Below, piece after piece: positions 47,471-48,274 of a DNA stretch of 64,000 bases. Position 1 is the first letter of the stretch, and every line of letters starts with the position of its first letter. The DNA lies in the NCBI RefSeq assembly GCF_002335445.1, contig NZ_BDME01000001.1:1-64000 (forward strand), given 5' to 3'. The notes below the pieces were generated by a model that was not told where the DNA came from, did no database searches, and saw nothing but the letters and a program-made list of their open reading frames with translations. Position numbers and translations under genes: made by a program. Source of the DNA: Lebetimonas natsushimae (GTDB lineage: Bacteria > Campylobacterota > Campylobacteria > Campylobacterales > Nautiliaceae).

Positions 47471-47479
47471 TGTTATAAT
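47471..47479 (+). promoter_or_regulatory. Extended -10 promoter for rsmA
   Basis: TGTTATAAT lies 33 bases before the proposed AUA start. A second perfect match, TGCTATAAT at 47509-47517, overlaps the start codon itself. Confidence 0.55.
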
Positions 47480-47512
47480 TTTAACATCTTTACATTAAAA
47501 AAAGGATATGCT

Positions 47513-48274
47513 ATAATCAAGGCGAAAAAAAAATTTGGTCAAAATTTTTTAAAAGACAGACATTATTTAAATAAAATCGTCGAAGCGATGCCCAATACTC
47601 AGAATTTAACAGTAGAGATTGGGCCTGGCTTAGGCGATTTAACGGAAAAGTTGCTGGAAAAAAGAAGAGTAACAGCAATAGAAATAGATAAAGATTTATG
47701 TGAAGTTTTAAAACAAAAATTTCCTGATTTAAATCTTTTGTGTGGTGATGTACTTGAATTTTGGAAAAAGGGGTCTTTAGCAGAAGAAAATTATGATTTG
47801 ATTGCAAATTTACCTTATTATATTGCAACAAATATAATTTTAAAAGCTTTAAAAGACAAAAATGCAAAAAATATTTTAGTTTTAATTCAAAAAGAAGTTG
47901 CAGATAAATTTAGTGCAAAAGTAGGTGAAAGAAATTATTCGGCACTGGCTATTTTAGCTCAGAGTGTGGCTGAAGTTAAAAAATTGTTTGATATACCTCC
48001 TGGAGCATTTGTTCCTGCTCCGAAGGTCACAAGCAGTGTAATTTTATTTGAAAAATTTAATGAAACTTATGATGAAGAATTTGCTAAATTTTTAAAAATT
48101 GCTTTTGCAAATCCAAGAAAAACGCTTAATAAAAATTTATCTGCAACTGGATTAAAACTACAAGATTTTGGACTTGATCCAAAATTGAGGCCTCATCAGG
48201 TAGACGGCTCTACTTTTTTCCAGCTCTTTTCCGCGCTAAAGGAAAGGAGTAAGAATGGAAATAACAAAAAATAA
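47513..48274 (+). CDS. rsmA: 16S rRNA dimethyladenosine transferase
   Basis: RsmA/KsgA dimethylates two adenines near the 3' end of 16S rRNA. The frame is open through the essential N-terminus IKAKKKFGQNFLKD, so an ATG at 47588 is too late: it would remove the RNA/SAM segment. The codon at the Met position is ATA (47513), with AAAGGA 7 bases before it; the only nearby ATG (47508) is out of frame. VEIGPGLGDLTEKL and the catalytic LPYY (NLPYYIAT) follow. The protein is 253 residues. Confidence 0.88.
   Translation: MIKAKKKFGQNFLKDRHYLNKIVEAMPNTQNLTVEIGPGLGDLTEKLLEKRRVTAIEIDKDLCEVLKQKFPDLNLLCGDVLEFWKKGSLAEENYDLIANLPYYIATNIILKALKDKNAKNILVLIQKEVADKFSAKVGERNYSALAILAQSVAEVKKLFDIPPGAFVPAPKVTSSVILFEKFNETYDEEFAKFLKIAFANPRKTLNKNLSATGLKLQDFGLDPKLRPHQVDGSTFFQLFSALKERSKNGNNKK

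Follow-up and report, generated by a model that had tools for sequence, protein, structure and literature searches.

The E. coli gene infC starts with the codon AUU, and the bar minigenes of phage lambda read AUG-AUA-UAA. Very few near-cognate start codons are conserved across a whole family, and the known regulatory case is infC, which itself encodes an initiation factor. In S. aureus, working AUA starts are found in infC and ccpN, and the non-canonical starts tested in reporters support roughly 10−30% of the expression obtained with AUG; the main effect of such starts is attenuation (PMC13009471).

The start region described here is that of ksgA (also named rsmA), i.e., the inferred rare start sits on the gene of a universal rRNA dimethylase whose loss relaxes start-codon choice. 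KsgA dimethylates A1518 and A1519 of 16S rRNA. In the absence of these methyl groups initiator selection is relaxed, for which an effect through IF3 binding has been proposed, and loss of RsmA loosens initiation fidelity (review, PMC7949028). Among the proteins upregulated when KsgA/Dim1 is deleted in E. coli and H. volcanii, non-AUG starts are over-represented, the E. coli proteomics being noisy, and earlier reporter work, known here only as cited in that study, found elevated non-AUG initiation in KsgA-deficient bacteria (PMC7897474). No description of a rare start codon for ksgA was found in the literature, which was searched as open-access text only.

The window, i.e., the whole stretch of 64,000 nucleotides that was analyzed, is from Lebetimonas natsushimae, a member of the Nautiliaceae, which are hydrothermal-vent bacteria. 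The ksgA region of the window contains the following features.

46696−47457, reverse strand: hisF, the divergent neighbor (open reading frame and translation).
47471−47479, forward strand: probable sigma-70 extended −10 element for the ksgA transcript, TGTTATAAT; the window is enriched in TGNTATAAT.
47501−47506, forward strand: Shine-Dalgarno (SD) sequence AAAGGA, invariant in 21 genomes, with a core common to many genes of the window and of average predicted strength.
47507−47517, forward strand: TATGCTATAAT, also readable as an extended −10 element (a rival reading); it matches TGNTATAAT, with flanks that differ from those of intergenic sites.
47508−47516, forward strand: out-of-frame mini-ORF of two codons, ATG-CTA-TAA here and ATG-NTA-TAA in relatives, whose ATG and TAA do not vary among 21 genomes.
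47513−47515, forward strand: inferred AUA start codon of ksgA, there being no NTG to start from; 6 nt from the SD, invariant in 21 genomes and aligned with the TTG, GTG and ATG starts of other Campylobacterota.
47513−48274, forward strand: ksgA (rsmA) coding sequence, 253 aa; TIGR00755 220 bits, model positions 1−255 of 256.
48255−50180, forward strand: downstream gene (open reading frame and translation), which we take to be RNase J-like from sequence recognition, with no model test.

The product of the gene matches known KsgA structures and, when initiated at the AUA, gives a full-length match to TIGR00755 above the cut-off (220.4 bits, cut-off 171), with residue 2 at model position 1, as required of an RsmA/KsgA rRNA dimethyltransferase. 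Read directly, positions 47500−47530 are AAAAGGATATGCTATAATCAAGGCGAAAAAA. The codons of the ksgA frame are AAA GGA TAT GCT ATA ATC, followed by AAG GCG AAA AAA AAA TTT GGT (K A K K K F G) and CAA AAT TTT, and the stop-to-stop frame gives ...LKKGYAIIKAKKKFGQNFL. With the prefix 47 omitted, AAAGGA occupies 501−506, T 507, the out-of-frame ATG (AUG508 in the mRNA) 508−510, CTA 511−513, TAA 514−516, ATA 513−515 and ATC 516−518; the stop codon of the mini-ORF overlaps the AUA by 2 nt.

The ksgA frame is open far upstream, yet no ATG, GTG or TTG is found between the distant upstream stop and ATG 47588, i.e., there is no NTG ahead of the conserved KAKKKFGQNFL. Starting at ATG 47588, the first in-frame NTG, removes the first 25 residues including this segment, and the shortened form scores 189 bits with TIGR00755, begins at model position 30 and loses positions 1−29 and 31 bits. 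The N-terminal motif (K)KxFGQNFL that marks membership is kept only with a translation start at or near the AUA. Given an AUA start, automatic annotation limited to NTG would probably truncate KsgA in Nautiliaceae. Among the 73 open reading frames of the window (a crude list), ksgA is the only one for which a comparison of the N-terminus with relatives was made and showed the lack of an NTG start.

The AAGGA core is located 5−6 nt before the start codon in 24 of 29 genes of the window (range 4−11 nt). At ksgA, the distance from the SD is 6 nt for AUA, 1 nt for AUG508 and 9 nt for AUC. The original prediction, that rsmA begins with AUA, is borne out by the lack of an in-frame NTG and by the ATA at the homologous start, its coordinates are correct, and the ATG at 47508 is, as it claimed, out of frame and stopped at once (M-L-stop); only the gap between AAAGGA and ATA, given there as 7 bases, has to be changed to 6 nt. 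A TAA or TGA in the ksgA frame directly precedes AAA GGA in several to many relatives, which means that the start must fall within AAA-GGA-TAT-GNT-ATA-ATC. The criteria for an AUH start, i.e., no NTG, an AUH at the homologous codon at SD spacing, and conservation of the rare codon (here in 21 genomes of two families), are met at ksgA. That AUA is the start codon is strongly inferred and leaves little room for doubt, with the reservation that data on the protein N-terminus, ribosome profiling or reporters do not exist for this family. The initiator tRNA has A37 and U33, with which U(−1) AUA A(+4) could form additional pairs.

Forty relatives were searched, and the start regions were laid out codon by codon. 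At the start of ksgA, AAAGGATATGNTATAAT is carried by 19 of the 20 Nautiliaceae genomes with a readable ksgA and by both genomes of a sister family; of 21 Nautiliaceae genomes, 19 have the exact 17-mer a single time, at ksgA, the other two being G004 and G011 (incomplete, with no ksgA found). The block reads AAA GGA TAT GNT ATA ATC in every Nautiliaceae ksgA except that of G004, and G032, one of the two sister-family genomes that share the block, has the same block but with ATA ATA. Over positions 47501−47517, 16 of 17 bases are invariant across 21 genomes, while 47511 (N) takes all four bases; the second codon of the mini-ORF is ATA, CTA, TTA or GTA (ATG-ATA-TAA in 8 of 21 genomes). From −12 to +4 no site other than N has changed in these genomes, and parsimony on the protein tree gives a mean of 3.9 changes for leader sites, six for N511 and none for T507, A508, T509, G510 and T512. 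Chance would hardly produce such a block. For five sites to stay unchanged at the leader rate, a Poisson estimate gives ~3e-9, which assumes equal neutral rates and is a guide only. A conserved SD and AUA alone would not require TATG.

In the sister genome G041, ksgA is found behind plsY and folB, not opposite hisF, and the block is unchanged despite these new neighbors, i.e., it belongs to ksgA. Matches to the block pattern in other families proved to be unrelated sequences, the sister family excepted, and a phage database search gave no match. In G004 (L021, G004:C47), where the block has decayed, what used to be the SD region has become part of the reading frame; ksgA there looks as if it starts at an upstream TTG with its own putative SD, AGGTGG. 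The comparison of start codons in sister species, proposed as a check on the original prediction, revealed no family orthologue with ATG at this place, whereas the ATA recurs in 20 genomes besides that of the window.

In other Campylobacterota, the usual ksgA start is TTG, GTG or ATG, either at the homologous codon or close to it. Exactly at this codon, with which the AUA aligns, the NTG is TTG in 16 cases, GTG in one and ATG in four; the remaining genes have their ATG, TTG or GTG start located a few codons further upstream. Among ~165 further records examined from beyond the AUA clade, in which the same genome sometimes recurs, two more are without any NTG start. One, G040 (L290/L025, G040:C41), reads CAAGGATTTCCA-ATT-AAAGTAATTGCAAAAAAAAGG, with the SD AAGGA, 6 nt and ATT, which probably represents an AUU start, here in another family, as judged from the sequence of a single genome with 8% contamination. 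The other, G104 (L289/L213, G104:C1; a single-contig genome), reads CAAGGAGAAAGT-ATC-GAGCATAAGGCC, with the SD AAGGAG, 5 nt and ATC, which is predicted to be a probable AUC start, again from one genome. Both cases suggest that near-cognate starts may arise repeatedly in ksgA, each being a single genome that needs confirmation. The infC gene of Nautiliaceae begins with ATG (in G000, locus L160, in a weak SD context, CGAGGTTAAACTATG), in contrast to the AUU of E. coli infC and the AUA of S. aureus infC, so the rare start in this family is peculiar to ksgA. In Sulfuricurvum and Sulfurimonas (L037−L046, L053−L095), ksgA has an ATG ~7−9 nt after a −10-like box and no SD, which suggests that these mRNAs may be leaderless.

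The element TGTTATAAT at 47471−47479 is well placed and would probably serve the ksgA transcript, for which a start at ~47485 and a 28-nt leader are predicted; the start is inferred and there is no measurement. In the window, TGNTATAAT is found 23 times where 6.3 are expected, and it is located upstream of ksgA in most family members at a variable distance from the SD. The start of the RNase J-like gene overlaps the end of ksgA by 20 nt (48255−48274), an arrangement that suggests possible translational coupling. Folds of the leader RNA were weak, and none was common to the relatives. With a canonical 16S tail assumed for the SD pairing energies, the spacer adds energy in two genomes (L010 and L017) and not in four others (L001, L002, L020 and L158). 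An extended SD-anti-SD helix of the S. aureus type in all members was not supported by the six genomes tested, and extended pairing, being inconsistent, was rejected as an explanation. The 16S rRNA was not found in the G000 assembly, although its completeness is listed as 100.

Autoregulation is the most likely function of the block because loss of KsgA has been published to raise initiation at non-AUG codons; experimental data on the regulation itself are lacking. We lean, with reserve, toward an AUA start of ksgA on an ordinary SD, where AAAGGA-U-AUG-NUAUAAU is an initiation region tuned to initiation stringency. The invariance of the SD, AUG, UAA and AUA and the fitting spacing of the AUA alone are observed, while the response to stringency is inferred. 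In this reading, 30S subunits that carry the full methylation would, with IF3, reject the AUA, or would be drawn to the AUG with its dead-end two-codon ORF, and KsgA would stay low. When KsgA is short, 30S subunits without A1518/A1519 dimethylation would discriminate start codons less strictly, the AUA would be accepted and KsgA would rise, as is expected for an AUA-started ksgA from the raised non-AUG initiation in KsgA-deficient cells. The net effect would be negative autoregulation via the enzyme's own ribosomal product, like that of infC via IF3, and might serve to detect and correct insufficient ribosome methylation in the cell. For this feedback via KsgA methylation, which is inferred and not demonstrated, the balance is even or slightly positive. 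The original prediction also held that the AUA would be sensitive to IF3 and would link ribosome assembly to initiation fidelity; a link between KsgA and initiation fidelity is supported by the literature (PMC7897474, PMC7949028), and the rRNA methylation by KsgA is a more direct route than IF3 alone.

The out-of-frame ATG, whose invariance the original prediction missed, does not differ among the 21 genomes and probably belongs to the device. Whether AUG508 has a translational role has not been shown and could go either way; initiation there may be infrequent, given its distance of only 1 nt to the SD. Only tentatively can the choice between two codons be regarded as a sensor of ribosome maturity, with mature 30S subunits engaging the AUG or nothing and immature ones the AUA, such that KsgA is made and rRNA methylation would act back directly on the methylase by way of start-codon selection from a single SD. 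As a decoy, AUG508 would form with the AUA a direct readout of stringency, the weak point being, again, its distance from the SD. Alternatively, it would deliver terminating ribosomes to the AUA by reinitiation. Against autoregulation through the AUA, the bacterial studies used general non-AUG starts and not the ksgA block, the block is gone from one Nautiliaceae genome (G004), AUU and AUC each rest on one genome, and the invariant TATGNTATAAT is also compatible with an extended −10 promoter.

The rival explanation that survives best, though unlikely, is that the weak codon merely holds KsgA low, without feedback and with no translational role for the ATG. All start-site evidence applies here as well, weak TTG and GTG starts of ksgA are common in the order (see the counts at the homologous codon above), and attenuation is what non-canonical starts mainly bring about in S. 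aureus (PMC13009471). However, the unchanging T507, A508, T509, G510 and T512 are left unexplained next to an N511 that has changed six times, and KsgA loss reportedly raises non-AUG initiation (PMC7897474), so some feedback would be automatic.

Rather improbable is a helper function of the mini-ORF, where initiation at AUG508 yields a dipeptide, the ribosome stops at the UAA and the SD re-sets it onto the overlapping AUA. The AUG and UAA are conserved and the geometry of their overlap with the AUA is fixed, and E. coli reinitiation is IF2-dependent and falls when IF3 is in excess (PMC2268962), but the 1-nt distance of AUG508 from the SD is outside the 4−11 nt range of the window and loading should be poor.

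It is also doubtful that the block is conserved mainly as DNA, i.e., that TATGNTATAAT is an extended −10 element which overlaps the ksgA start and blocks evolution of an ATG, the AUA being a tolerated by-product. Each fixed base at 507−517 fits TRTGNTATAAT, with N free, such that the sequence match is fulfilled, and TGNTATAAT is the main promoter signature here; because G041 and L017 have no clear second −10 upstream, the promoter reading is not excluded. Yet the transcript would begin near codon 5 and contain no ksgA start codon, and a leaderless mRNA from the TATAAT at 47512 was rejected for want of a start codon. In the family, intergenic TGNTATAAT sites have TT in front in 27 of 38 cases and TA in 2 of 38, and the next base is mostly T, whereas the ksgA block has TA before and C/A after in all 21 genomes; the promoter-like flanks and position (TT before, T after, 18−34 nt before the start codon) are not found at the block. 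In addition, internal promoters are poorly conserved in the phylum, with 6 of 41 positions shared by C. jejuni and H. pylori (PMC3847290). Finally, a sequencing or assembly error, or another reading of the gene (a frameshift from ATG508 or a start at ATC 47516), has the nearby ATG as its sole support and is hardly tenable: the block is identical in 21 independently assembled genomes, complete ones included, i.e., the one-base error that would have refuted the original prediction is ruled out by 20 further genomes, a frameshift would have to be −1 and has no slippery sequence since N511 is free, and the ATC is 9 nt from the SD, which is the wrong spacing, with ATA in its place in the sister family.

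The block is a simple, portable sequence for testing whether translation initiation monitors ribosome maturation. Like infC of E. coli (AUU) and S. aureus (AUA), ksgA combines a near-cognate AUH start with an SD at working distance and a product that affects start-codon discrimination. Unlike infC, the gene is that of an rRNA methylase, an AUG mini-ORF overlaps the start, and the regulation is inferred. The S. aureus starts of ccpN (AUA), citZ (AUA) and cvfC1 (AUU) were found by initiation profiling, and those of ccpN and cvfC1 are, like the ksgA block, conserved in relatives (PMC13009471). Extended SD motifs are predicted for S. aureus infC, cvfC1 and ccpN, whereas ksgA has an average SD with no consistent spacer pairing. 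The AUU of pcnB, the second known near-cognate start in E. coli, limits expression, as far as its citation in PMC13009471 goes. The product of pcnB is unrelated. We know of no overlapping AUG at the pcnB start. The ksgA mini-ORF resembles the lambda bar minigenes in being a two-codon AUG-NNN-UAA, and differs from these in that its second codon varies and that it sits on the start of a gene.
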